Shown piece after piece: positions 17,715-37,276 of a stretch of DNA of 64,000 nucleotides. Position numbers and translations under genes: made by a program. Numbering within the stretch: position 1 is the first letter of the stretch; each line of letters opens with the position of its first letter. The notes beneath the pieces are model-generated. The model was not told where the DNA came from and searched no databases. It was given only the letters and a program-made list of their open reading frames with translations. The DNA comes from an uncultured Spartobacteria bacterium (GTDB taxonomy: Bacteria > Verrucomicrobiota > Verrucomicrobiia > Chthoniobacterales > Chthoniobacteraceae), in the NCBI GenBank assembly GCA_903933715.1, contig CAIZLD010000018.1:1-64000 (forward strand), written 5' to 3'.

Positions 17715-17774
17715 TCATTTTCGCAGGCCGGGGGTAAAAAACTTCTGACAATTTGACAATCTTGCCCCGGTAAG

Positions 17775-18635
17775 ATGCTGCCGCCCCATGATGTCGATTT
17801 GCCGGTTCCCCCCCCCGCTGGGGTTGAATCCGGCGGCGCGTCGGGTAGTGAAGAGGGGTCGGGGCTTTCTGGTGACGAGTCCGGAAAAAATTCGTTTGCT
17901 TTGTCTTGTGGAGAGCCGCGCGTGCGATTGAAGCGTGGGCAACTCGACCGTTGGTCGGCTGTGTATGGGACGGAGCATCGTCAGTTGCGGCGCTGGGTTA
18001 AGCAGGGTGAGGCCTCGGGGGATAATTGTCCCTTGGATGATCCGATCCAGATGCCCGCCTGGTGGGCACGTAATATGCGGTATCAGGTGCCGGGGAAGAT
18101 CCTGGCTGCGGCAAAGGCATGCGATCCGCCTCCCGAATCATCTCCTGTTGTTGAGGCTCCCGCCAAAGGCCTAGGTGAGATGGAGCCCGGGGCGGTAGAT
18201 CTCGGGGGGCTGGTTGTGGCGGAAGGGGATGAGGTTCGCCAGGCGGAGCGGTTGGTTCAGGCTGCATACGGGCTCCTGGTCGAAGCTTACGCGGGCCGCG
18301 GTGGCGAGGTCGATCTACTCCAACGCCGGTGGGAGAAGGCGCAGGATGCTTTGCGCAAGGCGAAGATACAGCAAGAGGAATTGCTGAAACGGCGGCGCGA
18401 GTTGATTTCCCGCGCGGCCGTGCAACGGGATCACGATACCGCCTGCGAGTTGCTGAGACAAATGCGGGGGTCAATGGTTCGGCAAATCTTGGAGCTGTGC
18501 CCGCTGCTTGATCCTCCGGCTCGCGCCCAGGTCACGTCGGCGATTGAAAGCGTCCGGGAAAAAGAGGAGCGCGTTTTCCGCAACCTTGATTCGATGAAGC
18601 AACCCTCCGATGTTTTGCAACTCCTCGCTTCCTAA
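17775..18635 (+). CDS. Putative small terminase subunit
   Basis: 286 aa. An N-terminal Pro/Gly/Ser-rich tail is followed by an HTH-like segment (RWSAVYGTEHRQLRRWVKQG, about 57-76), a Pro-rich linker, and a long charged coiled coil (about 150-280; LLQRRWEKAQDALRKAKIQQ, then EELLKRRRELIS). DNA binding plus coiled-coil oligomerisation and its place just before the large subunit point to the terminase small subunit, which recognises the packaging site. Identity rests on position and architecture, not on a family motif. The ATG at 17775 is 16 nt after the first TTTGACA box; the gene end overlaps the next by 26 nt. Confidence 0.55.
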   Translation: MLPPHDVDLPVPPPAGVESGGASGSEEGSGLSGDESGKNSFALSCGEPRVRLKRGQLDRWSAVYGTEHRQLRRWVKQGEASGDNCPLDDPIQMPAWWARNMRYQVPGKILAAAKACDPPPESSPVVEAPAKGLGEMEPGAVDLGGLVVAEGDEVRQAERLVQAAYGLLVEAYAGRGGEVDLLQRRWEKAQDALRKAKIQQEELLKRRRELISRAAVQRDHDTACELLRQMRGSMVRQILELCPLLDPPARAQVTSAIESVREKEERVFRNLDSMKQPSDVLQLLAS

Positions 18636-20553
18636 ATCATTTGCCAGGGCTTTTGCGGAAGTTCCGGACGAGACGATCTGGGAGTTCGCCGATCGCGAAG
18701 TGACGCTGGTTAATGAGGACGCGGCCGAGCCGGGGCCGTATCGCTCAGCAAAGACACCTTGGGTACGGCGGCTCCAGGAGTTAATCCAGCATCCGTTCAC
18801 CTATGAGTGGGACTGGGGCTCTGGCTCGTTCGTTCGGATTCCGGTGACGGAGGTAACGATCGAGAAAAGCTCCCAGAGTGGTTTTTCTGAAGGGGCGATG
18901 AACGGTATTCGATGGAAGGCGAAGCATCGCCCGTGCAACACGATCTACGCCATCGACTCGGAGAGCGAGGCCAAGAAAGTGGCCCGGCGCCTCCTCCGCT
19001 CCCTCCAGTTGTTGGACGCCAATATTTTTACCGGCGATGCGGATGATATCAAGTCGCTCGAATTCCTGCTCCGTGGGATGGAGCTCAATTTCTACGGTTC
19101 CTTTGCCGCTGGAAAGTTTGCAAACAAACAAGCTCCGCTTTTGATCGCTGATGAGGTTGAGGAGCATGGCCAGGCAACCGGCGACACCTCGACCCTGCGC
19201 AACCTGATGAGCCGAAAAAAGACCGCTGCCAATGGGTTGCAGATCAATCTTTCGAAGCCAAAGAAGGATACCGGGCCGATTCACAAGGCGTTCTTGCGCG
19301 GCAACCAGGAAGAGTTTTTCATCAAGTGCCCGCACTGTGGCGAGCTGCAACCGATTACGTTTTTCAATGATGAGGAGCGCGAGATTCCGTTCGGGAAAAA
19401 AGTCATTGAAATTCAGGATGAGCAAACAGGGCGCGTGGTCTTCCGTTCGTTCGAACTGCTCCCGCGCGGCCAAACCAGAAAGCTGAAAGCGGGCAAAATA
19501 CGATTCGACCATTGCAAGGATGAGCTGGGGCAGTGGGACAAGCTGCGCGTTTCTCGTGAGACGTATTATGAATGCGGGGGCTGCCAGGGGAGGATTGAGG
19601 AGTGGCAAAAACAAGGGCTCGTCGATTCCGGTTTTTGGCTGGCAACGGCCATCGGGACCCCCGGGGTAATTAGCCAGCATATCGGCGATCAATATTCCAG
19701 CGATGTCGCGTCAAGCTGGGGAGCCATCGCACTTGATTTTCTCGACGCTCTGGCGGGCGGCCCCACGGAATTGCAAGGCTGGTATAATCACCGCCTCGGC
19801 CTTCCGTTCCACGATGAAATCAGCACGACGGAACAAAAAGATATTACGGGAAATATCGCCGGAGCTGTGGGCGACACCTGCATTCCTTACCGCCGCGGCG
19901 TTGTGCCGTTCGAGCCCATCGCGCTGATTCTCGGGAGCGACATCGGCGGCAATTACGCCAAGTGGGCCATGATCGCGGTCGCCCCCAATCTGGAAGACGT
20001 CGCGGTGATTGACTGGGGGGCCGAGCTCGATCCCGATGCCGTTGCGGAGATCATCATCCGTGAGACTTGGAAGAATCCCGATGCCGCAAAAGTTTATCGG
20101 ATTTCGACGGGGTTCCAGGATGCGAAATATCGCAAGACCGACTCTTACAAAGCGTGTCTCGCCGTGCGCGGCCGCCGGATGATTCCGTGCGCCGGTTTGG
20201 GCGGGACGGCTGCGCGAGTCAACAAGGCCTGGAGTTACACGCAGATTCCCTCCTACCCGCAAGGGTTCAAGCAACTCACTTTCAACGACCGCGATGCCAA
20301 GGATGAATTTTACGTTTCGCGGCTCAAGAAAAAACTCCGGCGTGTCTGGTTCCCGGTCGATGTCGCGCAAGATCCTGAGTTTGTTGAGGAGCTTTGCGCG
20401 GAGGAATTGATCCGGGTTAAGGGGCACGTCATCTGGAATCCGCATCCCGGCGCGAATCATTACGGTGATTGCGTAAAGTTGGCGATCACCGGACTGCGCT
20501 ATCTGACGCGCAAGCAGCGGACCCAGCGCGAACCGGTCGCCGCTGAGGTTTGA
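18610..20553 (+). CDS. terL: Terminase large subunit (GpA family)
   Basis: 647 aa. ATP-driven DNA translocase and nuclease of the packaging motor. The ATPase half has a GpA-type adenylate motif (EKSSQSGFSEGAMNGI, near residue 80) and an acidic LLIADEVEEHG. A Zn-finger-like pair CPHCGEL and YYECGGCQGR sits between the domains. The nuclease half begins with ILGSDIGGNYAKWAMIAV, giving an RNase H-like metal-binding Asp. GpA-type terminases usually make cohesive ends. The ATG at 18610 overlaps the small-subunit gene; its stop is part of a TTTGACA box. Confidence 0.92.
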   Translation: MFCNSSLPKSFARAFAEVPDETIWEFADREVTLVNEDAAEPGPYRSAKTPWVRRLQELIQHPFTYEWDWGSGSFVRIPVTEVTIEKSSQSGFSEGAMNGIRWKAKHRPCNTIYAIDSESEAKKVARRLLRSLQLLDANIFTGDADDIKSLEFLLRGMELNFYGSFAAGKFANKQAPLLIADEVEEHGQATGDTSTLRNLMSRKKTAANGLQINLSKPKKDTGPIHKAFLRGNQEEFFIKCPHCGELQPITFFNDEEREIPFGKKVIEIQDEQTGRVVFRSFELLPRGQTRKLKAGKIRFDHCKDELGQWDKLRVSRETYYECGGCQGRIEEWQKQGLVDSGFWLATAIGTPGVISQHIGDQYSSDVASSWGAIALDFLDALAGGPTELQGWYNHRLGLPFHDEISTTEQKDITGNIAGAVGDTCIPYRRGVVPFEPIALILGSDIGGNYAKWAMIAVAPNLEDVAVIDWGAELDPDAVAEIIIRETWKNPDAAKVYRISTGFQDAKYRKTDSYKACLAVRGRRMIPCAGLGGTAARVNKAWSYTQIPSYPQGFKQLTFNDRDAKDEFYVSRLKKKLRRVWFPVDVAQDPEFVEELCAEELIRVKGHVIWNPHPGANHYGDCVKLAITGLRYLTRKQRTQREPVAAEV

Positions 20554-20567
20554 CAGCCCCAAGCAGT

Positions 20568-20954
20568 ATGAGCCTTCCTGATACTTACACCGCCTCGCTC
20601 CCGGAAGATTTTGAGCAGATTATGGGGGGATCCGCGAAAGCAAAATCAGCCATTGAATTGATCGCAGAAGAACGCCATCGGCAGATCGACACAAAAGGAT
20701 TTTCAGCAGCACATGATGATGAGCACGATTTTGGCCAAATCGCAGCGGCTGCCGGATGCTATGCGCTTGCCGGTTGGAGTAATACCACTTCTCAAGAGTT
20801 GTGGCCATGGGAGGAGCCGAATCCGTGGAAAGATCAGGATCGTTGGAATATCACCCCTGCGGAACGCATCAATGAACTGGTGAAAGCAGGAGCGCTGATC
20901 GCCGCGGAGATTGATCGGCTCCAACGTTCGATGTTAAATCCCTCAAAGGTTTGA
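20568..20954 (+). CDS. Conserved small phage protein (EERxRQ...DD type)
   Basis: 128 aa from the ATG at 20568, 12 nt after a TTTGACA box; a TTG at 20550 in the same frame is a less likely start. The pattern ELIAEERHRQIDTKGF, AHDDEH, WPWEEPNPWK and LVKAGALIAAEIDRLQR is widespread in phage genomes, sometimes labelled MazG-like or nucleotide pyrophosphohydrolase-related, though function is unproven. Its placement between terminase and portal genes rather than in an early operon is unusual. Confidence 0.7.
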   Translation: MSLPDTYTASLPEDFEQIMGGSAKAKSAIELIAEERHRQIDTKGFSAAHDDEHDFGQIAAAAGCYALAGWSNTTSQELWPWEEPNPWKDQDRWNITPAERINELVKAGALIAAEIDRLQRSMLNPSKV

Positions 20955-20970
20955 CAAGTCCGCCCGTTAA

Positions 20971-21324
20971 ATGGACGCGGACCAACAGCTAGCGATTGCC
21001 CACTACCGAATGATGTTTCCCAATGCTGCGGCATTGGGGACGGATGCCGCCGATTGGCTCGCCGAATACAACCGCGTATCGTCTTGCGGGCTGGCGGCAA
21101 CACTGATCACCGGCTCCACGTTCGAGGGTGGCGGCGCAACCGGGCAGCGCAACTTCTCGCAGACGGTTTTGATTCAAGGCCTCCTCATTGTCCGCGCCGA
21201 GCTCGATCCCTTGTTTGATGACGTCGCGTTCGCTCCGCCCAAAATCCGCCGCCGGCAGCGGATGGGGATCACGGTGCAATTCGGGACCGGCTCTGGTTCC
21301 TACGCGACCAACGGAAATTATTGA
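20971..21324 (+). CDS. Hypothetical head-region protein
   Basis: 117 aa, start 14 nt after a TTTGACA box, stop 1 nt before the portal start. The position between terminase and portal is where lambda-like phages place the small head-tail joining protein (gpW), but I see no gpW motif. An N-terminal helix (QQLAIAHYRMMFPNAAAL, DAADWLAEYNR) is followed by a beta-rich C-terminus. Function unknown. Confidence 0.6.
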   Translation: MDADQQLAIAHYRMMFPNAAALGTDAADWLAEYNRVSSCGLAATLITGSTFEGGGATGQRNFSQTVLIQGLLIVRAELDPLFDDVAFAPPKIRRRQRMGITVQFGTGSGSYATNGNY

Positions 21325-21327
21325 TCT

Positions 21328-22851
21328 ATGATTCTTGGACCTTCTGGCCAGCCTGTTTCATCCCGCCCCGCCCGTGCTTTGTCCTGGGACAATGCTTACG
21401 AAGCCGCCAAGCGTACCGGCTATCGCGGCTATTTTTATTTTCCGTCGCTGGAGCCTCAAGACCAGCAAGGCGATTTTACGCGTGAGCAGATCGCGAAGAA
21501 AATTAACTGGCTCTACAACAACGTGGGGGCGGTCTCTGCCGTCATCGACGGGCTCGGCCTGGACGAATGCGATACGGGCCTCTGGCCCAAGGCCAATACC
21601 AGCAACGCGGAATTCAACTCGGTTGTGACCGATGCGTTCCACAACGAATGCGGCGATGCCCGCGTATTCAACTCCGCAGGTAAGGACGATTTCTATTCCG
21701 CGCAATGGTTGATCCGCCGATCCATTCGGCTTTACGGCGATCTCTTTGGCCAGCTCTTGCGGCCGGGGACCGAATCCGGCCCTCCGCAAATGCATTTCGT
21801 CCCCTCCTGGCAGGTGGGGAACGCATTGACCACGACGATTGATCAAGGGCTCTGGCGCGACGGCGTCATGACCAATCGGCTCGGCCGGGCGATTAAATAT
21901 CGCACGCTCACCAATGCCGCGCGCTCGCAGTGGGCGGATGTCCCGGCCGAGGACATGCTGCATTTCCACGACAAATTTCTGCCTGGTCAACAGCGCGGGA
22001 TTTCCGGCCTCGCGGCGGTCGCTCGCAAACTCTACTCGATCGACGACATCGAGAAGGCGGAGACCAGCGGCACACTCTTGCGCGCGCGCATGGCCTACGC
22101 GATCACCAATCGAGACGGCGGAGACGGCGATATTAGCCTCCTCCCTGGTGCCAGCGAAACCGAGGAGGTTGAGACCAAAGACGGTGGCAAGCTGATCGTC
22201 CAGAAGATCGTCGCACGCGATGGCAGCGAAGTCGATGTCGCCGATCTCCCGCCCGGAAAAGACATCAAAGTCGTGGAGTCGCAACGCGGAGTGATTACCG
22301 CAGAGTTTCTCAAATACCTGCTGACCGACGTGGCTCTCTGCACTCTCTACCCGCCCGAGTATGTATTCTTCCTTGGGGGTATCACGCAAGGGACCGTGGG
22401 GCGCCTGGTCCAGAATCGGGCGCAGCGCATCATCAACGTTGTCCGCTCATTTCAGCTCGCCCCGCAATTTGTCGAGCGCTGGTATGTCTACTGGCTTTGG
22501 CAGCGCATCGCCGCCGGGGTCTTCGACAAAGTCGCCGGAGGCATTCCTGGCGACTGGTGGCGGCATAAAATCATTCTCCCGCGCGACATGACCGTCGATG
22601 TTGGCCGGGAGGGGCGGCTTTACGACGACCGGCTCGCGACCGGGAAGATCTCCGATCAGGACTACCACGGGATGCAGGGCCGCGACAACGAGGACGTCGA
22701 GGACGAGATCATCGCCAGCGCGATCCGCCGCCGTCAAAAAGTCGAAGCCGCCGCAAAAAAAGCCGGGGTCACGCTGACATTTGAACAAGTGTTCCTAGCC
22801 CCAGCCGGGACCGCCCCGGTGCAGATCATCCAAGAGCAACCGCCTGAATAA
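21328..22851 (+). CDS. Portal protein (lambda-type)
   Basis: 507 aa; forms the dodecameric DNA channel at the capsid vertex. Typical segments are the N-terminal YEAAKRTGYRGYFYFPSL, INWLYNNVGAVSAVIDGLGL, IRRSIRLYGDLFGQLLRPG, and the C-terminal WYVYWLWQRIAAGVF and ATGKISDQDYHGMQGRD. Length and order (after terminase, before the S49 protease) match lambda gpB-type portals. No Shine-Dalgarno or TTTGACA box precedes the ATG at 21328, which follows the previous stop closely. Confidence 0.9.
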   Translation: MILGPSGQPVSSRPARALSWDNAYEAAKRTGYRGYFYFPSLEPQDQQGDFTREQIAKKINWLYNNVGAVSAVIDGLGLDECDTGLWPKANTSNAEFNSVVTDAFHNECGDARVFNSAGKDDFYSAQWLIRRSIRLYGDLFGQLLRPGTESGPPQMHFVPSWQVGNALTTTIDQGLWRDGVMTNRLGRAIKYRTLTNAARSQWADVPAEDMLHFHDKFLPGQQRGISGLAAVARKLYSIDDIEKAETSGTLLRARMAYAITNRDGGDGDISLLPGASETEEVETKDGGKLIVQKIVARDGSEVDVADLPPGKDIKVVESQRGVITAEFLKYLLTDVALCTLYPPEYVFFLGGITQGTVGRLVQNRAQRIINVVRSFQLAPQFVERWYVYWLWQRIAAGVFDKVAGGIPGDWWRHKIILPRDMTVDVGREGRLYDDRLATGKISDQDYHGMQGRDNEDVEDEIIASAIRRRQKVEAAAKKAGVTLTFEQVFLAPAGTAPVQIIQEQPPE

Positions 22852-22858
22852 CCCATTT

Positions 22859-22880
22859 CCGTAGCGCACGTGCGCTACGG
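22859..22880. promoter_or_regulatory. 22-bp perfect palindrome with CACGTG core, copy 2
   Basis: CCGTAGCGCAC followed by its exact inverse GTGCGCTACGG, in the short gap between the portal and protease genes, 13 nt before the protease ATG. Copy 1 lies within the ParB-like gene at 11563-11584. It could be a ParB-like binding site, an operator or a processing hairpin. Confidence 0.55.
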
Positions 22881-22893
22881 GATTTCCATTTTT

Positions 22894-23823
22894 ATGAACC
22901 TCCATTTACTCGCCAGAATCCTTGCCCAGCCCTGGGCTGTGCAACACTCGCACCTCGCGCTCTTGACCCAGATGGTGATCGCTCCCGAGCATCATGCCGC
23001 GGCCCGCCGGGAGTCCGCCGAAACAACTCCGGCTCGCGCCCGGGCTGGCGCGGCCGCCCGGATCGTCACCACGCCCTGGGGCACGCGCCGCCAGATCGCC
23101 TGCGCGCCCAATGTGGTCCCGCTCAACTGGGAGGCGGCCTGCGCATGCGATGAGGATGCGCTCCCGGAAATCCCGAATAATGTCACCTGCATTTTGGTCT
23201 GGGGTATCCTTGGCCGCGCTTGGACTTCTGACGATAAATGGTATCTTGACCCGATTGAAGTTGATTCGATTACCGCCGAAATCAACGCGGCACCTCCCGG
23301 GAATACGGTAGTCCTTTGGTTCCGATCTCCCGGCGGGATCACCAAAGGAATTCCGGAGAACGCTGCCTCGCTTCGATCTCTCGGCAAGGGTCGCCGGATA
23401 CTGGCATGGTCGGATGAATGTTGTGCTAGCGCGGCGATATGGCTCGCCAGCCAATGCGAGCGGATCAACGCCACGCCGACGGCAGACCTCGGAAGCATCG
23501 GGGTCTATATTTCATTGTACGACTGGACCGAATACCTAGAGAAATCCGGGTGCAAGCTTGAACTATTCAAGGCAGGATCGATGAAGGCAATGGGGCTCCC
23601 GGGCAATCCGCTTTCGGGCGAGGAATCGGCCCATTTGCAAGGGATCGTGGATATTACCTACAACCAATTTTGCAGCGATGTCACCCGGATGCGTGCCGTG
23701 CCAGAGACCGCAATGCAGGGGCAATGTCTCCGTGGGGCCGATGCGCACGCCGCCGTGTTAGTGGACGGCTTTTTCCCGTCCTCGGCCGCCTATTTTGCTG
23801 CGGTTGGCCAGGGTAAGGTTTGA
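22894..23823 (+). CDS. S49 (SppA-type) prohead protease
   Basis: 309 aa from the ATG at 22894. Capsid maturation protease of the ClpP/crotonase fold. The catalytic Ser is S179 in CCASAAIWLAS, and the Lys of the dyad is K226 in ELFKAGSMKAMG; PLSGEESAHLQ matches the conserved segment after it. The fold is announced by TVVLWFRSPGGITKGIPENA. Placement between portal and capsid genes matches lambda gpC. In some phages the C-terminus also encodes the scaffold; here a separate coiled-coil gene follows. The stop codon is inside a TTTGACA box. Confidence 0.9.
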   Translation: MNLHLLARILAQPWAVQHSHLALLTQMVIAPEHHAAARRESAETTPARARAGAAARIVTTPWGTRRQIACAPNVVPLNWEAACACDEDALPEIPNNVTCILVWGILGRAWTSDDKWYLDPIEVDSITAEINAAPPGNTVVLWFRSPGGITKGIPENAASLRSLGKGRRILAWSDECCASAAIWLASQCERINATPTADLGSIGVYISLYDWTEYLEKSGCKLELFKAGSMKAMGLPGNPLSGEESAHLQGIVDITYNQFCSDVTRMRAVPETAMQGQCLRGADAHAAVLVDGFFPSSAAYFAAVGQGKV

Positions 23824-23863
23824 CAACTCCGCGTGATCTGACTGTTCGAACAGAAAAAACAAC

Positions 23864-24466
23864 ATGAAAAATATCTGCACCTCCCTTCTTTTCGCCCCCC
23901 GCCTCCTGCTTTCCCCCGATGCTGCCAGCCCCGGCGGCGGAAGTTCCCCCAAAGCAGAAACGCCCGCCGCTCCGAGGACGCTGGCAGAGGCGCTTACGGC
24001 CTTGGCTGCGGCCCAGGCCGCTCAGGCGACTGCGGCCTCTGAGTCGGCAACAGCGCAAGCATCGGTAACCTCAATCACCGCCGAGCGAGACCAGATCAAG
24101 GCCCAGTTCGAAACGGCGACCGCGGCCGCAACTGCGGCAAATACAGAGCGCGACCAGGCGCGGGCCGAGCTGGCCACTGCGCAGGCTTCCATTGGCGCAT
24201 TGACCACGGATCTCGCCGCGGCCAACGCCGCTCACGCGAAGGCGAGCGAAAACGTTTCGCGTCTCGAAAAGCTTTGCGGCCTGAAGGGAATTGATCCGAA
24301 AGCCGCCGTTAGCAGCGTGGAATCCAGCGAAGCGGCCTCGGGCGATGGCGCCGCTCTGGCTCAGCAATGGGCAGACCTCCGCGCCTCCGGGAAATTCATC
24401 GAAGCCGCTGAGTTCCGCAAGGCGAATCAGGTTGCGCTCGATGCGTTCGCCGCATCCGCGAAGTAA
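23864..24466 (+). CDS. Ala-rich coiled-coil protein (putative scaffold)
   Basis: 200 aa. Almost entirely alanine-rich helical coil (residues about 45-135, with the repeated pattern AAQAAQATAASESATAQ and SITAERDQIKAQFETA), ending with a compact basic/acidic segment (QQWADLRASGKFIEAAEFRK). Between protease and capsid genes this is the position and composition of a scaffolding protein. A head-decoration or assembly role cannot be excluded. The TTTGACA box is 38 nt upstream. Confidence 0.6.
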   Translation: MKNICTSLLFAPRLLLSPDAASPGGGSSPKAETPAAPRTLAEALTALAAAQAAQATAASESATAQASVTSITAERDQIKAQFETATAAATAANTERDQARAELATAQASIGALTTDLAAANAAHAKASENVSRLEKLCGLKGIDPKAAVSSVESSEAASGDGAALAQQWADLRASGKFIEAAEFRKANQVALDAFAASAK

Positions 24467-24521
24467 CCGGAGTCTTTGACACAGCAAACATTTCAACGCA
24501 GCAACTCTCCCAAAACTCAAT

Positions 24522-25451
24522 ATGCCCAATACTATCTCCGCCGATCTCCAGCGCCAAGCCCGCCTCGATGCCGTTATCCGTGGCTTCCGCCGCCGCATTG
24601 TCCCGATCCTCTCCTTCGCCCTCACTGCCAATAATGTCGCGCTCGAGGGAACCAATGAAGTCGTCGTTCCGTTTTACAACCTGGACACCACGGCCTCAAC
24701 CGACTTTGTCCCGGCCGACGGATATGTGGCCGAAGACTCGACTACCGGCTCGCGGAAAGTGACGATCAACAAGCGCAAATACAAGTCGCTCAAAGTGACG
24801 TCGGCTGAACTGGCGCGGCAGCCGCTGCTTGATCCCGCGATGCTCCTGGAGATCAAGGGCGAGAAACTCGCGGAAGATGTGGTGAACGATATTTTTTCCG
24901 TGATCACTGCCGCGAATTTCGGAGACGCAGCGCTGGAGACGGCAGCCGCCGCCTTCGACTCTGACGACATCGCCGATTTGCGCGGCGTGTGCAACGTGGC
25001 ACAATGGCCCACCGCCGGCCGGGCGCTCTGCCTTAACGCCGATCTCGACACCGCCCTTTTCAAGGACGACTCGATCAAAAACGCCGCCGCGTTTGGTTCT
25101 CCTGATGCGATCCAAAAAGGGATCATCCCCAACATCTCCGGGTTCAACTATTTCAGCTCCCCTGGAATGCCAGCCAATGGCGAACGTTTGATTGGTTTCG
25201 CCGCCTTCCAGAGCGCGATCCTGGTCGGGTTCTCTCCGATCAAGCCGCATCCGAACGTGATGAAGGCCATGGCGGCCTACGAGCTGATTCCCGTTGAGGT
25301 CGCCCCCGGCGTCACGATCATGCTCGAATACCGCGCCATGGGCGACGCGTTCATGGATGCTTCGCTTGAAGTGGTCGAATGCAACTACGGCTACGACAAG
25401 GGCAATGAGTCCGCAATCAAGCGGATTGTCGCCCCCGCTCCCGTCGGCTAA
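24522..25451 (+). CDS. Major capsid protein
   Basis: 309 aa, typical size for the HK97-fold shell subunit. Conserved-looking features are an N-terminal helix (ADLQRQARLDAVIRGFRRRI), an E-loop region with NEVVVPFYNLDTTASTDFVP, KYKSLKVTSAELARQPLLDP, and a C-terminal P-domain with PVEVAPGVTIMLEYRAMGDA. It sits immediately after the protease and putative scaffold. The exact family is not identifiable by eye, so the call depends on order, length and predicted fold. Confidence 0.8.
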   Translation: MPNTISADLQRQARLDAVIRGFRRRIVPILSFALTANNVALEGTNEVVVPFYNLDTTASTDFVPADGYVAEDSTTGSRKVTINKRKYKSLKVTSAELARQPLLDPAMLLEIKGEKLAEDVVNDIFSVITAANFGDAALETAAAAFDSDDIADLRGVCNVAQWPTAGRALCLNADLDTALFKDDSIKNAAAFGSPDAIQKGIIPNISGFNYFSSPGMPANGERLIGFAAFQSAILVGFSPIKPHPNVMKAMAAYELIPVEVAPGVTIMLEYRAMGDAFMDASLEVVECNYGYDKGNESAIKRIVAPAPVG

Positions 25452-25464
25452 TCGCTAACGACCT

Positions 25465-25845: not shown

Positions 25846-25870
25846 TTGGATCGAGCATGTATCATGGTTG

Positions 25871-25908
25871 GCAGGCCCGGCTCTTCACGAGTCGGGCCTG
25901 TTTTCTTT
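25871..25908 (+). terminator. Rho-independent-type terminator
   Basis: GCAGGCCCG-GCTC, loop TTCAC, GAG-TCGGGCCTG then TTTTCTTT. A strong stem with a short mismatch, followed by a T-run. It sits between the head and head-tail connector genes and overlaps the start of a TTTGACA box at 25906. Confidence 0.75.
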
Positions 25909-25925
25909 GACACCCCCCGGGAAGC

Positions 25926-26264: not shown

Positions 26265-26773
26265 ATGATCAAATTTTCGCCACTGAAATCAAAGCGATTT
26301 TCGACCAGGAGCTTCTTTCTCTTCTTGGGCGCGAAGCGGTCGACGCAACGCACGATACCCCGGAGATCATCGGCTACCCGTTTCACATTACCGTCGGGCA
26401 AACCGCAGATTCCGGCGCCCGCCCGCTTCTGGTGATCTACGGAGAATACAAGACGTATCCTCGCGGATACCGGATGGGCAAACTGCATCTCATGTTGCGC
26501 AGCCATTTTGGCGACGAAGGCGCATTGCCAGCGCCGCCCGCCGAGTTCACACATCAAGCCCGGTTTGAGACGATCTACAAATTTCTTTTTGGGACGGTTG
26601 AGAATGATGCCTCCCAGCGTTCCGCCGTCCGCTTTTTGGTGTCGCAACGGGAAAAGGTTGAGATGTTCGACTACGGTCTGACTGCCGAGGAGTCCATCGA
26701 ATGCTTGGTCGATGGAGAGGAGCTGGTGACTACCATCCACATGGACGTCGCATTCCGGCACCTCCAAGTTTGA
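26261..26773 (+). CDS. Hypothetical tail-terminator-region protein
   Basis: 170 aa from the ATG at 26261, coupled to the previous gene. An alpha/beta protein with ATEIKAIFDQELLSLLG and an extended strand pattern (PLLVIYGEYKTYPRGYRMGK, HMDVAFRHL at the end). Size, fold character and order suggest a tail completion or terminator protein. Its stop lies in a TTTGACA box (LQV then TGA). Confidence 0.5.
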   Translation: MNDQIFATEIKAIFDQELLSLLGREAVDATHDTPEIIGYPFHITVGQTADSGARPLLVIYGEYKTYPRGYRMGKLHLMLRSHFGDEGALPAPPAEFTHQARFETIYKFLFGTVENDASQRSAVRFLVSQREKVEMFDYGLTAEESIECLVDGEELVTTIHMDVAFRHLQV

Positions 26774-26789
26774 CAAGCGCCGCAACTAT

Positions 26790-27119
26790 ATGCCCACCGT
26801 ACTCACTAAAGGCTTCATTGATACCGACGGCACCGCAAACGGTGACTACGTCGACGAAATCTCAGTCGACACGAGCGTCGAGCTGATCACCCGCAAAGGC
26901 ACTGATGGTGTGACCAAAAAGGTTGACTCGGTTGATCCGACTTCCGAATTTTCGATCAAGGGAGGCGGCGCGCCAACGCTGGCGCTCGGGGTCGGCGCGG
27001 TTTCCATCAAGGAGTTGGAAGGCGGCGTCAAGGCGGTTGAGAAAAAGAACCACACGCAAAAGCGCGGAGAATACGACGAGTTTTCCACCAACGGAAAGCA
27101 TTTCCCTGGCGCCTCCTAA
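26790..27119 (+). CDS. Small hypothetical tail protein
   Basis: 109 aa, ATG 14 nt after a TTTGACA box. Beta-rich with NGDYVDEISVDTSVELITRK and FSIKGGGAPTLALGVGAVSI. It occupies the tail-tube gene position but is rather short for a tube subunit; a tail-tube-like or head-tail adaptor role is a guess. Confidence 0.5.
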   Translation: MPTVLTKGFIDTDGTANGDYVDEISVDTSVELITRKGTDGVTKKVDSVDPTSEFSIKGGGAPTLALGVGAVSIKELEGGVKAVEKKNHTQKRGEYDEFSTNGKHFPGAS

Positions 27120-27133
27120 GCCGCTGGTTTCTC

Positions 27134-29050: not shown

Positions 29051-29079
29051 GCAGTGCGCTTTGACATTCGCGCGTGGTC

Positions 29080-30615
29080 ATGTCCGCCGCACGCGCTACC
29101 GCCATTTTCGATGCCGAGGATTCCCAACTGCGGGCTGCGTATCTCCGAGCCGACAAGGGGCTCATGATGATGCAGAAGCGGTTCGCCGCGGTGAAAAGCT
29201 TTTTGGTCGGAATGGCTCCTGTTGCCGCCGTCATGGGTGGTATCGCAAAAGTGAGCAATGTCCTCGACGCGGGAAAAGAGCTGGCAGACACGAGTATGGC
29301 TACCGGCTTGGCTACGGCCGACATCCTTAAAATGCGCAAGGAATTCAAACTTGCGGGGCGGGATGCATCGGAGATCGCTCCGGCAGTCCAGAAAATGCAA
29401 AAGGCGCTGGTCAACGGCACCGGGGATAAGGCTCTTCAAAAACTCGGGCTCAATCTTCAGGCATTGCGAAAGCTTTCCCCTGCCGAACAATTTCACCAAA
29501 TCGGGAAAGCGATTGCAGGCATGGCTGATCCCGCTGAACGAACCGCCGCAGCGATGGCGATCTTCGGGAAAACCGGAGCAACCATGCTTCCGGTATTCCA
29601 GCAAAAAGGGTTTGGAGATGCCAAGCTCAAAAAAGGCGACCAGCTCATGGCGCAGGATGCCGAGCTTTTTGCGGAGACAAAAAATAAAATCACAACGCTC
29701 AAGCCGCAGCTCGACTCCCTCTTTATCGGCATGGCGGATAAGATCATCCCGGTATTTCGCCCGCTGTTGGATCGGATTGAAAAATATGATTTTGCCACAA
29801 AGGGGCAAGAGCTTGGTGACCCGATTGCGCAGGCAATCCAGCTAGTTTCCGACGGGGAAACGTGGAGCAGCATGGTAGTCTGGACCAAGTTGGCTGCGGC
29901 GCAATGTATGGCTGCGCTTGAGGAAGGTTTTGCGAGTCTCCCCGACCTGCTTGTTAAGCATGGCCCGAAATTTCTGAGCCTGCTTATGGAAGGGTTTGTA
30001 GCACTCGGGAAGTATTTTGTGTCAACCGTCGATAGTGTCGTCTCAAAGATCATTAATGCGAGTACCACTCTCCGCCGCAACGATCCCGCCCGTGCGGCGG
30101 GTGCGGCGATATTGGATGGCCTCGGTCATCCAGTGCTTGCCGGAATGCTCCGCGCGATTCCCCCGAAAGAGGTAGAACGCAAAACCAATAATCAAAAAAA
30201 CGGGGTGAGCGGTTCGCCAGAAGACGAATTGAGGAATAAAACGAAGAAGATTTCCTCAGATGCTTCAAAATCGTCTTCTGGAAAAGACGACAATTATTGG
30301 GCTAAGGTCGCAAAGGAACTTCAAAAGGAATCCGATGCCTTCATGGATCCTAATTACGCGAAAATGCAGAAAAAGTCTGAGGAGTCCCGTGCCAATGCGA
30401 AAGGCACGCCCGGCGCGGCGGAGGTTGATAAATCCTACTCGGCCCCTGTTGTTTCCTCGCTTCAGCGCATCGGCGGCGATGCTGGTGCAGGCGGCGGGAG
30501 CATGGAAAATTTAATGCGCGATAGCGTATCGGTCGCCCGGTCCAGCATGTCGATTCTCCAAGGGATTCACGATTCGCTTACCTCGCAAAAACCGGCCTAC
30601 GCCCTGTTAGCTTAA
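29080..30615 (+). CDS. Tape measure protein
   Basis: 511 aa from the ATG at 29080 (GTG at 29074 is the alternative), 13 nt after a TTTGACA box. It sets tail length and has typical features: an N-terminal coil (RAAYLRADKGLMMMQKRFAA), hydrophobic helices (FLVGMAPVAAVMGGIAKVSN), a conserved SMATGLATADILKMRKEFKL segment, then AMAIFGKTGATMLPVFQQKG and later hydrophobic helices. Its modest length implies a short non-contractile tail; at roughly 0.15 nm per residue this would be about 75-80 nm (rule-of-thumb estimate). Confidence 0.88.
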   Translation: MSAARATAIFDAEDSQLRAAYLRADKGLMMMQKRFAAVKSFLVGMAPVAAVMGGIAKVSNVLDAGKELADTSMATGLATADILKMRKEFKLAGRDASEIAPAVQKMQKALVNGTGDKALQKLGLNLQALRKLSPAEQFHQIGKAIAGMADPAERTAAAMAIFGKTGATMLPVFQQKGFGDAKLKKGDQLMAQDAELFAETKNKITTLKPQLDSLFIGMADKIIPVFRPLLDRIEKYDFATKGQELGDPIAQAIQLVSDGETWSSMVVWTKLAAAQCMAALEEGFASLPDLLVKHGPKFLSLLMEGFVALGKYFVSTVDSVVSKIINASTTLRRNDPARAAGAAILDGLGHPVLAGMLRAIPPKEVERKTNNQKNGVSGSPEDELRNKTKKISSDASKSSSGKDDNYWAKVAKELQKESDAFMDPNYAKMQKKSEESRANAKGTPGAAEVDKSYSAPVVSSLQRIGGDAGAGGGSMENLMRDSVSVARSSMSILQGIHDSLTSQKPAYALLA

Positions 30616-30616
30616 A

Positions 30617-31321
30617 ATGAACGCAATCGACACGTTTAGAGATAACGGTGCGAATTTCAGCTACGATTCCAAAACGGGGATTTGGAAATTCGATGTGCCT
30701 TACGTGGTCGCCACGCTGGAAGAGTTGGCAACTTTTAATCCAACGTTTCTGCCGCTTGGCTTACCGGCTGGCGCGCGCCGCGGCGGCGAGCGAAAGGACG
30801 GCCAATGGGATTTGGTTATTTCGCACGAAGGCGCCGCAGGTTCCATCGCAACCGCCGGGTTCGGCGAAGGCTCGAAAGACACGGCCGAGCTTGATTATAT
30901 CACGCAAGAAGACCCGATTGAGACCTTCGAGAAATTCCAGGATTTAGCTACAAAATACAAAGCGCGATTCGCATCGGATGATCCCGACCGCCTGGTGGGT
31001 TGGCCTAAAACGCTCTTAGTGGACGGGAAGGGTGGAAAGAATCCGCTATATGGCACGACTCATTTTTTGAACCCTGCTGCGATTTGGCGTGTGACGCTAG
31101 TCCGCCAGTCCTTGCCTTCCGCCCTGCTTAAAGATCTCAGAAAGATCTGCACTCCAATCATTCCAAGTGGGTTGTCGAACTTCTCGGCCCCCATTTTGGA
31201 GACGGATCAGAATTGGTTAAAGCGGAGTGTTAAGGCCTCTTATCGCGGGAATGTCTGGGTCATCGTAATCGAGTGGCAGGCCAGCGGGAAGGGTGGCTGG
31301 GTCAAGGATATCTACGGTTAA
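30617..31321 (+). CDS. Hypothetical tail-tip protein (distal-tail position)
   Basis: 234 aa. Beta-rich, with TGIWKFDVPYVVATLEELA, QWDLVISHEGAAGSIATAGF and a C-terminal VWVIVIEWQASGKGGWV. First gene after the tape measure, the usual position of distal tail or baseplate hub proteins. No family recognised. Confidence 0.6.
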   Translation: MNAIDTFRDNGANFSYDSKTGIWKFDVPYVVATLEELATFNPTFLPLGLPAGARRGGERKDGQWDLVISHEGAAGSIATAGFGEGSKDTAELDYITQEDPIETFEKFQDLATKYKARFASDDPDRLVGWPKTLLVDGKGGKNPLYGTTHFLNPAAIWRVTLVRQSLPSALLKDLRKICTPIIPSGLSNFSAPILETDQNWLKRSVKASYRGNVWVIVIEWQASGKGGWVKDIYG

Positions 31322-31341
31322 TCAAGACAGGAGGATCATAA

Positions 31342-31959
31342 ATGCCATCCGGCCCTAATTTTTCTTCTGGCTCCTATCTCGAAGCGCGGCAGCTTGTCGA
31401 ACTTTCCGAATTGATGCGCGATGTCCTGAAGAGCCGCATGGTTTCAGGCCGCGGCGTTCATTTGGCGCACATGCCGGACGGGGTTATGCCCCGAGTCGCC
31501 GTTGCCACCGTCACCGGGATCCAGCACAATTTCCAGGTGCGGCTCGAAGAGGATGAGGAGGGAAAAATCCGCGTGCGGGTCGCATTTGGCTTGGTTGAGG
31601 GGATCGAGCCGGTGATCGGCGATCGCCGAATTAGCGAGCCGGATGAAAACGGGGAGGTGCCGTATCTCACCGTTTCCCCCGGAGATTTTGCGCCCCGTGG
31701 AAACTGCGAGCGCGCGTTGATTTATCTCCGTTACACGCTTTCGAGCCCGTCGGGTGCGGTGAGCAAGGTGGAGCCTGTTGCATCATCCCGGAAGCCCGAG
31801 GGTAAGCCTTGGATTTGGCATCGGCTGCTCGCCATCCTGATTCGGAAAGACAAGGACAGTCCGGCCACCGTTTCGCAGCAACTGTTTTTTAACCAGGGGT
31901 TCACGCTGACGAACATCAAGGGCGGCTACGGAACCCCGTGGCCGAGGAGTCAACCGTAA
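31342..31959 (+). CDS. Hypothetical tail-tip protein
   Basis: 205 aa. The ATG at 31342 has a good Shine-Dalgarno (ACAGGAGGATC), in contrast to the TTTGACA-type starts. Contains an acidic beta-rich segment (RLEEDEEGKIRVRVAFGLVE) and DFAPRGNCERALIYLRYTL. Located among tail-tip genes; unknown family. Confidence 0.6.
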   Translation: MPSGPNFSSGSYLEARQLVELSELMRDVLKSRMVSGRGVHLAHMPDGVMPRVAVATVTGIQHNFQVRLEEDEEGKIRVRVAFGLVEGIEPVIGDRRISEPDENGEVPYLTVSPGDFAPRGNCERALIYLRYTLSSPSGAVSKVEPVASSRKPEGKPWIWHRLLAILIRKDKDSPATVSQQLFFNQGFTLTNIKGGYGTPWPRSQP

Positions 31960-31960
31960 T

Positions 31961-32860
31961 ATGCAAGAGTCCGGCGCTCTGGAACGCTTGGAACGACTGC
32001 GGCGCGGAGATCCCGCGTTGATCTCCGCCGCCGATCTCAACTGGCTGGTGACGTGGGCGAACCGCTCCCGAAAACTCGATGCACGCTACGGCCGGGGCGT
32101 TAACACGCCGTTTCCGCATCCGTGGAAAGTGCAGGCCTCTCGCTGCGCGGAGATTGAGCGCGGTTGGCGGCTCGACGTCGCCGCCGGCGTCGTGAACGAC
32201 ATCATCCCCGGCATCCTTTACCGGAGAAAGGATGATCCGCGCGGCTGGGAGATGCCAGAAGACTACGTGGAGTCTCCGGCGAAAGGCGAGCTGGGCTGGA
32301 ACGCTGATTGGGTTGAGCGGGATCTGCTCGATGATCTCAATGATCCGCCATGGCTTTTAATGGTTTCGCCCGCGTTGGGGTCAAAAGCTGACCCCGCCTG
32401 GACATTCATTCCCCGGGCTCGTTGGATTCCGTATTTTGCAGCGCAGGTGGGCATGGAAAACGCGCAGATCTTCCGTGCTTTTGTCATGGTGTCGCAGGAC
32501 ACGCGTCGAAGTGCGATCGCGAGCGGCACGTGGCTGCGCGGGATGAAGCCGCCCGCCGTCAACAAATTCCGAATCGGCACACTCCCCGCGCGTCCAGGGA
32601 TGAGCCTTCCCCTCGCGGGTGTCTGGCTGGAATTAGCAACGCTCTGGCTGGTGAGGCCTGATCCGGATGCGCCCGAGGCCGATGCGGTCTATGTCCAGCA
32701 GGCGGAGTTTTGGCCCGCCTGGTGCGTCCAGGTGAAGCCGTCGCTTGATCTGGGTGCCGGAATCGGCGTCCCGGCCGTGGATATGCTGCTCGATATGGTG
32801 CAGCGCGATGTTGATCTTTTATTCGACCGTTCGGCCACGGTAATGAATTGGACGGTTTGA
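31961..32860 (+). CDS. Hypothetical tail-tip protein
   Basis: 299 aa. Starts 1 nt after the previous stop. Includes ALISAADLNWLVTWANRSRK, DPPWLLMVSPALG and PRARWIPYFAAQVGMENAQI; Trp-rich. No recognised domain. Its stop lies in a TTTGACA box (WTV then TGA). Confidence 0.6.
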   Translation: MQESGALERLERLRRGDPALISAADLNWLVTWANRSRKLDARYGRGVNTPFPHPWKVQASRCAEIERGWRLDVAAGVVNDIIPGILYRRKDDPRGWEMPEDYVESPAKGELGWNADWVERDLLDDLNDPPWLLMVSPALGSKADPAWTFIPRARWIPYFAAQVGMENAQIFRAFVMVSQDTRRSAIASGTWLRGMKPPAVNKFRIGTLPARPGMSLPLAGVWLELATLWLVRPDPDAPEADAVYVQQAEFWPAWCVQVKPSLDLGAGIGVPAVDMLLDMVQRDVDLLFDRSATVMNWTV

Positions 32861-32876
32861 CACGCCCTCGTTGGCA

Positions 32877-33026
32877 ATGGCCGCGTCTGATACCACTCCA
32901 GTCCTTAACCTGATTTCCGATTTTCCCTACGTCATCAAGCCGTTCCCGCTGGTGACGCTTAGATCGTATGGGGCGCTGGTTCTCCCGGCCGCTCCCAAAA
33001 AAAATGTAGAGGAGGCTTTGGAATAA
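32877..33026 (+). CDS. Small hypothetical protein in tail module
   Basis: 49 aa beginning MAASDTTPVLNLISDFPY and ending KKNVEEALE. The ATG is 14 nt after a TTTGACA box at 32856, the spacing seen for other late genes, which supports it as a real gene despite its size. The stop is 1 nt before the next start, whose Shine-Dalgarno (GAGGAGG) lies inside this gene. Function unknown. Confidence 0.6.
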   Translation: MAASDTTPVLNLISDFPYVIKPFPLVTLRSYGALVLPAAPKKNVEEALE

Positions 33027-33027
33027 T

Positions 33028-35655
33028 ATGGCGCGCGTAATGCCCATTTGGTGTGATCTGGATCGATCGCTCGGGGTTGTCGGTCCAACGGACGCCACAA
33101 CTGCCCAATATCGCTTTTTCCAAAACGATACCATCTCCCTTGTCCTCCACGGCTTGCGGGAAAACACCTCCAGCGTCCTTGCGGGCTCTCCCTACGAAAC
33201 GGCCAGCATCGAGTGGAACAAGCTGGTGGCCACGCTCAGCCTGGTTGATGCCGCGCCCGCTGGCGGCACGTTTAAGGTGCGGGTAACGGGCGTCAATTTA
33301 ACCTACGAGGATACGCCCGAGCTGGAATCAGACGTCCTCAAAGTGGATCTCGAAGCCGCGCTCAATGGCCTTGCTTTGGTATCAGCCCTTGGCGGCGTGA
33401 GCGTGGTCGAGGGCGGCGCGCCGAATATTTACCGAATTCAAAAGACCGATCCGTCCGCGCAATTCACTTTTTCCGTGGTCGAGAACAAACTCTCCCCGGT
33501 CTGTTTCTGCGATGTTCGCGTCGATCCCGACACGGCCGGAAAATGCGAGCTGAAACTTTATCGCGCCCCGGTTGCGTTGACGGACGCTTTTTCGCTCCCA
33601 ATGCCCCCGGCCATTGCCGCTCCTGTTCGCGTTCGCGTCGGGAGTGCCACGCGCAACGAAGTCCAGCGCATCATCATCCCGAACGGTGCGCTGGGGCAAT
33701 TTGCTCTGGACTTCAACGGCCTTGCCGGGAAGCTGATCTCCGTCTCAGGGATTAAAGCTTCGGGGTTCGCTGCCGCATTGAACGATCCCTACACGGCGGC
33801 CAATTCCGCGGACATTCGTTTCGCCGTGACCAGCCCGACCGCCCGGGTTTTCGATATTGAGTTCATCGGCGCGTTTGCAAAAACCGAGCAACCGCTTTTC
33901 TCGGTCGAGATGTTCGACCAAACCCCGCTTGATCTTCCGCAGGCCGAGATGCAAATCACCTCGCTGCGCGTTGAGGATTTGCTCGATACGGCCGCGAGCG
34001 CAGGATTGCTGTTTGAGATCGCGGCGTTCGATTCCAACGGCGCCAAGACGACGCTCATTCAGCAACCTGTCACGATCGTCAACAACGCCATCGACTCCAG
34101 CTCCATTACCCAGGCCGAACAGCAACCGCTTCTCACCCGGACGGAGACGGTCTACCAATACGTTGACCCGTCCCAGCCGATGCTGGCGGGGATTTTCGGG
34201 CATCCGTTCGCCCCGGAAGATGCGGCGCAGGATTACACATTCATTCACGACTTCGGCACCTGGCGGCCGATTGTCGAGGTGTATCGCAAGACCTCTGAGG
34301 TGCCCGAGGTATGGACCCGCGTTCCGTCCAATCATTTCACCGTGGAGGCAGTCACCGCAAACCAGGTGCGCGTTTACGGGTTCGATTTTGAGGTCGAGGC
34401 CAACAAGCTGCACGTGGATGTCATTGATCCCGACGCCCGCGTGCTCGTCAACACGCATGAGCATTCGACGGATCAGGTGTACCGCGAAATCAACGGGGTC
34501 AAGACCCCTCTTTCCGGCATCCTGGACAGTCTCGCAAACATCCTTCCGACCGGCTGGCCAAATATTCCGGCGAATAAGCTCAGCGGCACGGTATCGCTTG
34601 ATAACCTCGACATCGAGGCGATTGCAAAATCGCTTTCCGGATCCACAAATTTCCCGACCACACTAAAAGAGCTTTTCGGAGATCCCGCAATCGCGGCAAC
34701 GGTGGCCGAGGCGCTCAAGGATTCAAGCACGTTTGCAGATACCCTCAAAGCCTTGCTGGCCACGTCCGATGTCGCGGCTGTAGTCTCCAAAGCACTCCAG
34801 GGCGATTCCGCCTTCGCAGCCGTCATCCGCGATATGTTTAGCACCTTGCTCGCCACGGGCGGTGTAATGCCTCCGGGGATCACGCTCATGCAGATCGCGG
34901 ACATTGACGAGCAATTCCCGGCGCGGATTCCCGCGACTGGCACTTCCGCCGGGCTTGCGCCGCTTTTACCTTCGGCGGTCACCGGCCTAACCGACAAAGG
35001 GGAACTCGCTGCATCGCTTCCCTCCGCCGCGAGCAGCAGCGGCTGGAAATATACGCTTTCCCGCGCGACTCAGGCTCCGCAAGTCCGCAATCTCCGCCCC
35101 CGGCAGCAGTTTCCGGCGGGCTCGGTTGTCGCATCGGACGGGCGCGCCTGGTATATCGCGGATATCGCCGATCAGACGGCATGGCCGCGTGAAATGACGC
35201 GTCGCATCCTGGTCCTCCCGCTTACCGAAACGATGTTTTCGCCGGGGTCAAAGTTCGCTTGCATCGCCACGTTTGGCGTAAACCTCGTCGGTAACTGCGA
35301 GGGGCAATATATGTTTGTGCTCAAAACCGGCGTTCCGGTCGGGGCGGCAGGATTTGGGGCAAACCTTGAAAACGTGTTGTGGGACGATCCGCTCATTGAG
35401 GAGCCAATTTTGCTTACCTCAGCCACGGTGTTTCACACCTTCGGCCTCACGCTCACCCACGCCCTGGACGGGACGATCACCGGCACGGCCACTCGTTACG
35501 CTCAGACCCTCCCCCTTGGAGCGCCCCTTGTGGGAGCGAAACGCATTGTCTATGCCGCCCTGGAGCGATTCGATACCGAAAACACCATCCTCCCGCCAAT
35601 CGGCCAAGTCAGTTTGAAATTGAAGGGGGCAAAAGCCTCGATCTGCCCTATTTAA
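33028..35655 (+). CDS. Large tail appendage / fibre-like structural protein
   Basis: 875 aa, preceded by GAGGAGG. The N-terminal 440 residues are beta-rich (FKVRVTGVNLTYEDTPELES; FRVRVGSAT-type strands). Around residues 370-480 is a segment with FIHDFGTWRPIVEVYRK and EVEANKLHVDVIDPDARVL that resembles tail appendage beta domains. About 540-620 are short helical near-repeats (LKELFGDPAIAATVAEALKD, TFADTLKALLATSDVAAVVS, DSAFAAVIRDMFSTLLATGG). A further beta domain ends the protein. Likely a tail-tip or side-fibre component; the specific role is unknown. Confidence 0.65.
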   Translation: MARVMPIWCDLDRSLGVVGPTDATTAQYRFFQNDTISLVLHGLRENTSSVLAGSPYETASIEWNKLVATLSLVDAAPAGGTFKVRVTGVNLTYEDTPELESDVLKVDLEAALNGLALVSALGGVSVVEGGAPNIYRIQKTDPSAQFTFSVVENKLSPVCFCDVRVDPDTAGKCELKLYRAPVALTDAFSLPMPPAIAAPVRVRVGSATRNEVQRIIIPNGALGQFALDFNGLAGKLISVSGIKASGFAAALNDPYTAANSADIRFAVTSPTARVFDIEFIGAFAKTEQPLFSVEMFDQTPLDLPQAEMQITSLRVEDLLDTAASAGLLFEIAAFDSNGAKTTLIQQPVTIVNNAIDSSSITQAEQQPLLTRTETVYQYVDPSQPMLAGIFGHPFAPEDAAQDYTFIHDFGTWRPIVEVYRKTSEVPEVWTRVPSNHFTVEAVTANQVRVYGFDFEVEANKLHVDVIDPDARVLVNTHEHSTDQVYREINGVKTPLSGILDSLANILPTGWPNIPANKLSGTVSLDNLDIEAIAKSLSGSTNFPTTLKELFGDPAIAATVAEALKDSSTFADTLKALLATSDVAAVVSKALQGDSAFAAVIRDMFSTLLATGGVMPPGITLMQIADIDEQFPARIPATGTSAGLAPLLPSAVTGLTDKGELAASLPSAASSSGWKYTLSRATQAPQVRNLRPRQQFPAGSVVASDGRAWYIADIADQTAWPREMTRRILVLPLTETMFSPGSKFACIATFGVNLVGNCEGQYMFVLKTGVPVGAAGFGANLENVLWDDPLIEEPILLTSATVFHTFGLTLTHALDGTITGTATRYAQTLPLGAPLVGAKRIVYAALERFDTENTILPPIGQVSLKLKGAKASICPI

Positions 35656-35659
35656 GCTT

Positions 35660-37240
35660 ATGCCAGAAACTTTTTATTTTGTGCGCGGGCAGTTGGTCAA
35701 CGTGACACAGTCACCCGCTTCCAATATCTTTACCGGGAATATGCCGGGAGGGCTTTCGTTCTCGTCGTCGCTGAATGGAAGTAGTTATTTCGCGCAGGTG
35801 ACCGGGACGGTTAACGCGCCCGCGGGAACCTACCAAACCAGCTTCGCCACCTTTATCATCAGCGACCCTAATCCTCTCGATCCCCCTGTTATTTCCTGTG
35901 CAGAGGCCATTCTTTCCAATGGAGTCAATGTCGCAACCGTGGGCGCAGGTGCGATTAACCTCCAGTTCGCGGCCTCAAACTCCGGCTCAAATTGGCAGGC
36001 ATCGCTCCCATCCGGGTGCGGCATCAATTCGTTTGGGCATGTCTCCGGGACGCTCTCTCCGGGCTCCTACTCGATCGTGGTCCAATGCCAGAATTACGCG
36101 TGGACTCAAAACGATTACACTCACGGCCCAGCTCAGATCACCACCTACGCGCTGACATTAGTAGTAATTCCTGCCCTCCCGGTTGTCACGCTGAATTCAA
36201 ACTACTATGGGCCAACCTGGGGAGGTAACTACACGGTGGGCGATGACATGCCTAACGGGGCTCTGTTTAGCGTGCAGGACTACGCCAGGCCGGTCACTTG
36301 GACCGCAACAGGCCTGCCCGATGGTGTCAACATTAACCCCACCTCCGGCTACGTCACCGGCAAATTGACCGCGCCCGGTGAATATAATGTGACCGTGGAG
36401 GCCACCAATAGCACAGGTAGCGGGACGTTCGCGCAAACGATTATTGTCGCGGCGAACCAAAACGTTCCGGTTGTGACCCTCTCCGCCCAGCAGCCGGGCT
36501 ATACGGGTCAAGACAATGGCTACGGCCAAACGCGACCGCTTGCCTTTGAGGTTGGCGCGGCTGCAAAGATTTTCTTTGATACCACCAACGATCCCGCATC
36601 ATGGACCGCCGCCGATCTGCCGCTCGGGTTGACGATCGACCCGGATACCGGCGTTGTTTCCGGGCTGATCCGCGTGCCCGGCAGCTACCGTTTTTTTGTC
36701 ACCGCCACCAACGACGTGGGGTCGAGCGAGCCCTTGGGTGTCACGGTTACCGCAACCGGATCGGCTCAGGCGTTCCAGTTCGTGAGCGACGACCCTTCAT
36801 TGACGGATGTGCAGATCGACATCCGAACCGGTATCGTCACCAGCAGCTTGCCTCAGGCATTTAAGCAGCTCCAGCGTGTTCGGCTTGCATTAGTTTTCCT
36901 CGATTACGGCGCTCCTGTTGATCCGCCCGATCCCGCCGATGTGCTAATCGGCATCCGGAAGCAGGGCATGTATGACGGCGAATATTTATTTCCCTCTCCC
37001 GCTGCCGAATTGGTCCCGGCCGATCAGACCCACCCGGCTTATCTGCTGGCAGAATACACCGTGAATAATCCCGACATCAACGGGGAGATCATCGACGCGA
37101 TCGGTGCGTCGCTCCAGGGCGTCCCGGCACCAGTAGTCAACGCGATGGCGGAAGTGGCGTGGAAGCAGGACCAAATCCAGCGCATTTCAAAAACGTTCAC
37201 ACAGACCTACGAGCCTGCGATTACCGACACGGAAAATTAA
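35660..37240 (+). CDS. Tail protein with repeated putative Ig (He_PIG-like) domains
   Basis: 526 aa. At least three beta-sandwich repeats each contain the pattern LP-GL/V-x-I-x-P-x-T/S-G-x-V/I-x-G, for example ATGLPDGVNINPTSGYVTGK, ADLPLGLTIDPDTGVVSGLI and an earlier NSFGHVSGTLSPGSYSI. The C-terminal 140 residues (VQIDIRTGIVTSSLPQAFKQ ...) differ and may attach to the tail. Such domains on phage virions commonly bind cell-surface carbohydrate. It sits between two other large fibre-like genes. Confidence 0.75.
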   Translation: MPETFYFVRGQLVNVTQSPASNIFTGNMPGGLSFSSSLNGSSYFAQVTGTVNAPAGTYQTSFATFIISDPNPLDPPVISCAEAILSNGVNVATVGAGAINLQFAASNSGSNWQASLPSGCGINSFGHVSGTLSPGSYSIVVQCQNYAWTQNDYTHGPAQITTYALTLVVIPALPVVTLNSNYYGPTWGGNYTVGDDMPNGALFSVQDYARPVTWTATGLPDGVNINPTSGYVTGKLTAPGEYNVTVEATNSTGSGTFAQTIIVAANQNVPVVTLSAQQPGYTGQDNGYGQTRPLAFEVGAAAKIFFDTTNDPASWTAADLPLGLTIDPDTGVVSGLIRVPGSYRFFVTATNDVGSSEPLGVTVTATGSAQAFQFVSDDPSLTDVQIDIRTGIVTSSLPQAFKQLQRVRLALVFLDYGAPVDPPDPADVLIGIRKQGMYDGEYLFPSPAAELVPADQTHPAYLLAEYTVNNPDINGEIIDAIGASLQGVPAPVVNAMAEVAWKQDQIQRISKTFTQTYEPAITDTEN

Positions 37241-37276
37241 GGGCGCTCCCGGGCGATTTGACACGCTCGCGATGTC

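Follow-up and report, generated by a model that had tools for sequence, protein, structure and literature searches.

TTTGACA is a real and strongly conserved phage element, specific to gene junctions and tied to start codons, in a prophage of the Verrucomicrobiota and in its relatives. We propose, at a probability of roughly 0.7, that this box is a phage-specific late promoter of unusual geometry that would give rise to leaderless late mRNAs. The box would lie at about −20 to −14, with no sigma-70 −10 element, and the RNA would start 14–15 nt after its last base. A start codon located at nt 14 would then yield a leaderless mRNA with 5'-AUG or 5'-GUG, and the other boxes would yield an A/C-rich leader of a few to about 40 nt. 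With several of these promoters distributed along the late operon, a few right behind terminators, head and tail genes would be placed in separate late units. No earlier description of a TTTGACA phage promoter was found in the open literature, and to our knowledge gene regulation in phages of Verrucomicrobiota is almost unstudied. If the proposal is true, a 7-bp element forecasts RNA 5' ends to the base, so that late operons of many uncultured phages could be annotated and start codons corrected (GTG at 13 nt). Moreover, it would represent promoter recognition of a geometry unlike that of sigma-70, sigma-54 or T7 promoters.

A one-sided box at late gene junctions

The window (the whole 64,000-nt stretch of DNA analysed) contains a prophage-like late operon in which TerL, portal, head maturation protease, major capsid, tape measure and tail fibre genes were recognised. 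TTTGACA occurs ten times, each time at a late gene junction and on the + strand, at exactly the ten coordinates of the original prediction, and is absent from the − strand (Table 1). The shuffled control proposed there as a check gave 6.3 copies, both strands summed (dinucleotide shuffles of the whole window), against ten one-sided copies seen. Its other descriptive claims hold as well: eight boxes end 12–16 nt before a start codon and two end about 40 nt before one, a C/G-rich stretch is present 3' of the box, and in five of ten cases the box includes the TGA stop of the preceding gene. For the tape measure gene the ORF list gives GTG 29074, and the spacing is counted to ATG 29080. Between the last early gene and box 1 lie ∼560 nt without a called gene (17192–17751). 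TGACAA adjoins box 1 on its 5' side, as it does in relatives L168 and L170.

Table 1. Boxes and associated features of the window; spacing is from box end to start codon, and RNA starts are predictions.
Feature	Position	Strand	Spacing (nt)	Context
Candidate reader F29	10772–11302	+		early 176-aa protein; low-confidence model with sigma region 4 rows
Box 1	17752–17758	+	16	5' of 17775–18635, which overlaps TerS family F9; putative first late promoter, RNA start near 17772
Box 2	20549–20555	+	12	provides TerL TGA; 5' of 20568–20954
Box 3	20950–20956	+	14	provides preceding TGA; 5' of 20971–21324, then portal gene
Box 4	23819–23825	+	38	provides preceding TGA; 5' of 23864–24466 (family F4)
Box 5	24475–24481	+	40	5' of major capsid gene 24522–25451; putative RNA start near 24495 (cAAcg)
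Intrinsic terminator	25870–25902	+		14-bp stem; strongest predicted in late region; T tract enters box 6
Box 6	25906–25912	+	13	putative leaderless start at ATG 25926
Box 7	26769–26775	+	14	provides preceding TGA; 5' of 26790–27119 (family F5)
Box 8	29060–29066	+	13	ATG 29080, tape measure gene
Box 9	32856–32862	+	14	provides preceding TGA; 5' of small ORF ending 33026, then 33028–35655
Box 10	37257–37263	+	13	ATG 37277, tail fibre

Conservation in related prophages, on which the original prediction had staked the significance of the box, is pronounced. In 79 related viral contigs TTTGACA was found 384 times on the late strand and 5 times on the opposite one, a further 11 contigs gave 49:2, and the pooled relatives (1.37 Mb) gave 509:9 with a bias to junctions. 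Several boxes, on the coding strand only, are carried by a terminase relative (L014, 54% identity) and by each of six portal relatives (L015–L020, 44–48%). Boxes are likewise borne by prophages from the same order; one of these contigs belongs to a Chthoniobacter flavus MAG and others to Spartobacteria/Verrucomicrobia MAGs, which makes Chthoniobacterales the probable host order. A single copy is present in an unrelated Acetobacter phage, whose opposite strand lacks the heptamer. The same prediction had stated that equal frequency away from gene starts would count against the box, and it is host DNA that displays this pattern: the 38 copies in 406 kb with 309 called genes (12 sense, 14 antisense, 12 intergenic) show no strand preference, and none precedes a called gene start at the phage spacing.

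Among all 7-mers located 13–17 nt 5' of RTG codons TTTGACA ranks first (75 occurrences, compared with 5 in a control interval). All seven positions of the box are exact, with single-base variants hardly used and TTTGACT the best tolerated, and conservation is confined to these 7 bp, with none 5' of TTTGACA. A prophage of 67% GC (G070:C3; L069, L070) is without TTTGACA and carries TTTGAC with C, G or T as the next base (strand ratio 11:0), ∼13 nt, counted from TTTGAC, 5' of several start codons; judged by its sequence, this is the same element with the seventh base drifted. In a set of 12 phages boxes recur at the same junctions (F15, 7/8; F4, 10/13; F16, 5/7; capsid, 7/13), and others never carry one (TerL, 0/12; F6, 0/11; F11, 0/11; also F10, F13 and F14). 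Boxes are nearly restricted to the late operon, from the non-coding stretch 5' of the small terminase gene onward.

Spacing, start codons and the predicted RNA 5' end

Two features of the sequence downstream of the box point to a fixed RNA 5' end. The first is the spacing. The 505 boxes collected were reduced to 224 by dereplication, and 217 of these, which are drawn from related phages and hence not fully independent, have a start codon within 61 nt. Seven spacings fall below 13 nt and 73 at 13 nt, followed by 24, 18, 18 and 10 at 14, 15, 16 and 17 nt and a long tail beyond; the lower edge is sharp at exactly 13 nt, and a neutral rule for picking starts left the result unchanged. At 13 nt the start codon is GTG in 38 cases and ATG in 35, as compared with 9 and 127 from 14 nt upward (Fisher p 1.9e-13). 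Both the floor and the tolerance of GTG would be expected if the start codon itself were the RNA 5' end, i.e. if these mRNAs were leaderless. In mycobacteria a 5'-terminal ATG or GTG on the RNA suffices for translation, GTG being as good as ATG (PMC4633059). There, however, leaderless transcripts come from the cell's own promoters, whereas here they would come from a phage box without a −10 element, with 5' ends predicted from spacing and GTG use.

The second feature is seen where the start codon is remote. About a quarter of the boxes (n = 59) have their start codon 20–56 nt away, and in these a purine occupies nt 14 in 71% and nt 15 in 83%, with C at nt 15 in 3%; a pyrimidine-purine step at nt 13/14 is present in 54%, the highest among the positions tested. 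The simplest reading is that nt 14–15 would be the RNA 5' end, which we take to be a transcription start; transcription from the box would presumably be late in timing. AT content rises modestly at nt 8–11 after the box (−6 to −3), and the RNA that begins at nt 14 has less predicted structure than shuffled sequence. One would not expect a melting region to be GC-rich, as is the spacer immediately 5' of the putative leaderless starts.

A hairpin with a T tract lies within 50 nt 5' of 31 of 215 boxes but of only 14 of 1085 random positions, although the excess is modest relative to random TTT positions (95 of 1085). For at least 15 of the 31 the predicted hairpin is −20 kcal/mol or lower, and at many the T tract merges into the box; the 3' end of the window terminator reads TTCTTTGACA. 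Terminators placed just 5' of boxes favor a promoter over RNA processing, since transcription that has been stopped must restart and the box is a possible place for it.

Alternative readings and known systems

Processing of a long late transcript, in which UUUGACA guides an endonuclease to cut 13–14 nt downstream, would produce the same 5' ends and explain as well as a promoter does why spacings have their floor at 13 nt, why GTG is tolerated there and why a purine is registered to the box. We consider it the main rival but improbable, as boxes right after strong terminators would seldom be transcribed from upstream. Small hairpins between box and start are slightly in excess in the 13-nt spacers, and some (GCCGCTcgcgtAGCGGC, CGCCttcGGCG) are persuasive by eye, but upon folding the excess over shuffles was just 0.5 kcal/mol, and it was not significant in the 14–17 nt class.

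The original prediction had also suggested an element for translation initiation that takes the place of a Shine-Dalgarno (SD) sequence; termination-reinitiation through the TGA in the box is a variant of this. The fixed spacing to start codons, the TGA overlap in half of the window boxes and the scarcity of SD sequences in box genes agree with it. The SD contrast drawn by the original prediction is weaker than claimed, however: in the 12 phages SD-like 4-mers precede 5 of 81 box genes (control position 8/81) versus 68 of 358 boxless late genes (control 65/358), and 5-mers precede 2 of 81 versus 38 of 358 (control 21/358). The host has a canonical anti-SD and low SD use (43 of 309 genes, control 36), in agreement with the SD scarcity published for Verrucomicrobia (PMC10783764). 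A translation element leaves unexplained, however, why a purine is registered to the box at nt 14–15 when the start codon is 20–56 nt off, and both the exactness of the box at seven positions and its absence from host starts speak against it. Pairing of the box with 16S rRNA was dropped, there being no TGTCAAA in the host 16S rRNA region. We regard a direct role in translation as quite improbable; under the promoter reading the box would affect translation only by way of leaderless mRNAs.

Two other matches in host DNA were considered. An excess of TTTGACAN{9,14}ATG (32 versus 6) suggested a host-wide motif, but sampled host gene starts lack a box at the phage spacing, and the excess probably follows codon composition (TTT GAC). 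TTTGACA also occurs once in the host 16S-23S spacer (L009:3574–3580, CTGTTCTTTGACATC), where it resembles rRNA boxA and is probably unrelated to the phage box. A boxA/nut antitermination site of the rRNA type was rejected for the phage boxes, which have no conserved CTCTT-like 5' half and follow terminators.

The closest systems in appearance are two found in mycobacteriophages, namely the start-associated sequences (SAS) of Cluster K and the stoperators of Cluster A (L5-like) phages, and both differ from the box in length, position and gene class. Like the box, the SAS is a short asymmetric repeat in one orientation just 5' of starts, sometimes holds the upstream stop codon and is nearly absent from the host; yet it is a 13-bp sequence, GGGATAGGAGCCC, with an SD core, 3–7 bp from the start of non-structural genes only (PMC3203893), whereas the box has a different sequence of 7 bp, lies mostly at least 13 nt from the start and precedes structural genes. 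Stoperators are likewise numerous, asymmetric and oriented with transcription within short gaps between genes, but they have 13 bp, are the target of the immunity repressor and occur at the early operator as well (PMC9283540). In the box 7 bp are conserved, at a fixed register to the start codon, and the window phage has no copies in its early region, the place to expect an operator. That the box is a repressor-bound stoperator or operator is thus very improbable, and neither this option nor a recombination-prone module boundary, both raised by the original prediction, explains the exact 13-nt floor or the order terminator, box, gene.

Finally, TTGACA is the consensus −35 hexamer of sigma-70 promoters, but an ordinary −35 role is scarcely credible, since a −10-like hexamer, which belongs 16–18 nt after TTGACA, was found 15–19 nt after just 3 of the 217 boxes, fewer than the 14 and 10 counted in control intervals, and the RNA start would fall within the gene. 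The original prediction was right on this point; it had on the same ground set promoters aside, and a promoter of another geometry, with a start 14–15 nt downstream, does fit.

Candidate readers and further phage regions

As boxes are nearly restricted to the late operon, their reader is likely to be an early phage product, and we infer that it is phage-encoded. T7 promoters are recognised by a phage RNA polymerase, and their conserved sequence of ∼23 bp extends through the start site. T7-type late promoters resemble the box in being repeated within a late structural operon and in their rigid consensus; the box, however, has 7 bp. A search for T7-type RNA polymerase (PF00940) gave no match in 10 phage records, nor in any control genome. 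Sigma70_r2 (PF04542) likewise gave no match in 10 phage records, which may be incomplete, whereas the controls matched. We know of no polymerase or sigma factor with the geometry of the box.

In ordinary promoters TTGACA is bound by sigma region 4. Two early protein families, F19, found across most of the larger phage group, and F29, with homologues in two near relatives and distantly in prophage G070, each have a C-terminal HTH-like region in models of low confidence (pLDDT 67 and 64, respectively). The best structural rows for the F29 model are sigma region 4 (AlgU, Z 5.8; sigma-E, Z 5.5), in a Z range common for frequent arrangements, and the rows for F19 were a mixture of HTH, TFIIB and sigma region 4, none with Z above 5.5. 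On these models F29 is a weak candidate for the reader, to be taken as a lead only. A joint alignment and inspection by eye hinted that F19 and F29 are homologous, but a profile comparison of the two gave 0.5% and did not demonstrate homology, and a profile comparison among early proteins restricted to four families found nothing. Neither family is present in box phages G199 and G200. A wider and somewhat unlikely version of our proposal is that a phage-encoded factor, which might be a small free-standing HTH protein like sigma region 4, may redirect bacterial RNA polymerase to start 14–15 nt past a single −10-less TTTGACA; this would be a general switch to late genes, with leaderless late mRNAs, in a large group of Verrucomicrobiota phages.

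Some further phage regions are of note. A long palindrome at L076:5493–5543 (G028:C38), with ends TTTGACAC and GTGTCAAA, is a rare case of boxes on two strands. A 57.5-kb viral contig (G203; L201–L203) has terminases and structural gene sets in duplicate, from either a pair of neighbouring related phages or a join made in assembly. In the genome of the window itself, a second prophage-like region (G000:C22:1–28000; L064, L199) has boxes at 5916, 12774 and 19550, with spacings of 13, 13 and 16 nt. A lone box at G000:C39:21245 lies 15 nt before a 395-aa gene, and a separate stretch of that contig (36000–47500) has a helicase-like phage gene and encodes a protein that resembles F19; these (L310, L311) are possibly a third phage remnant.
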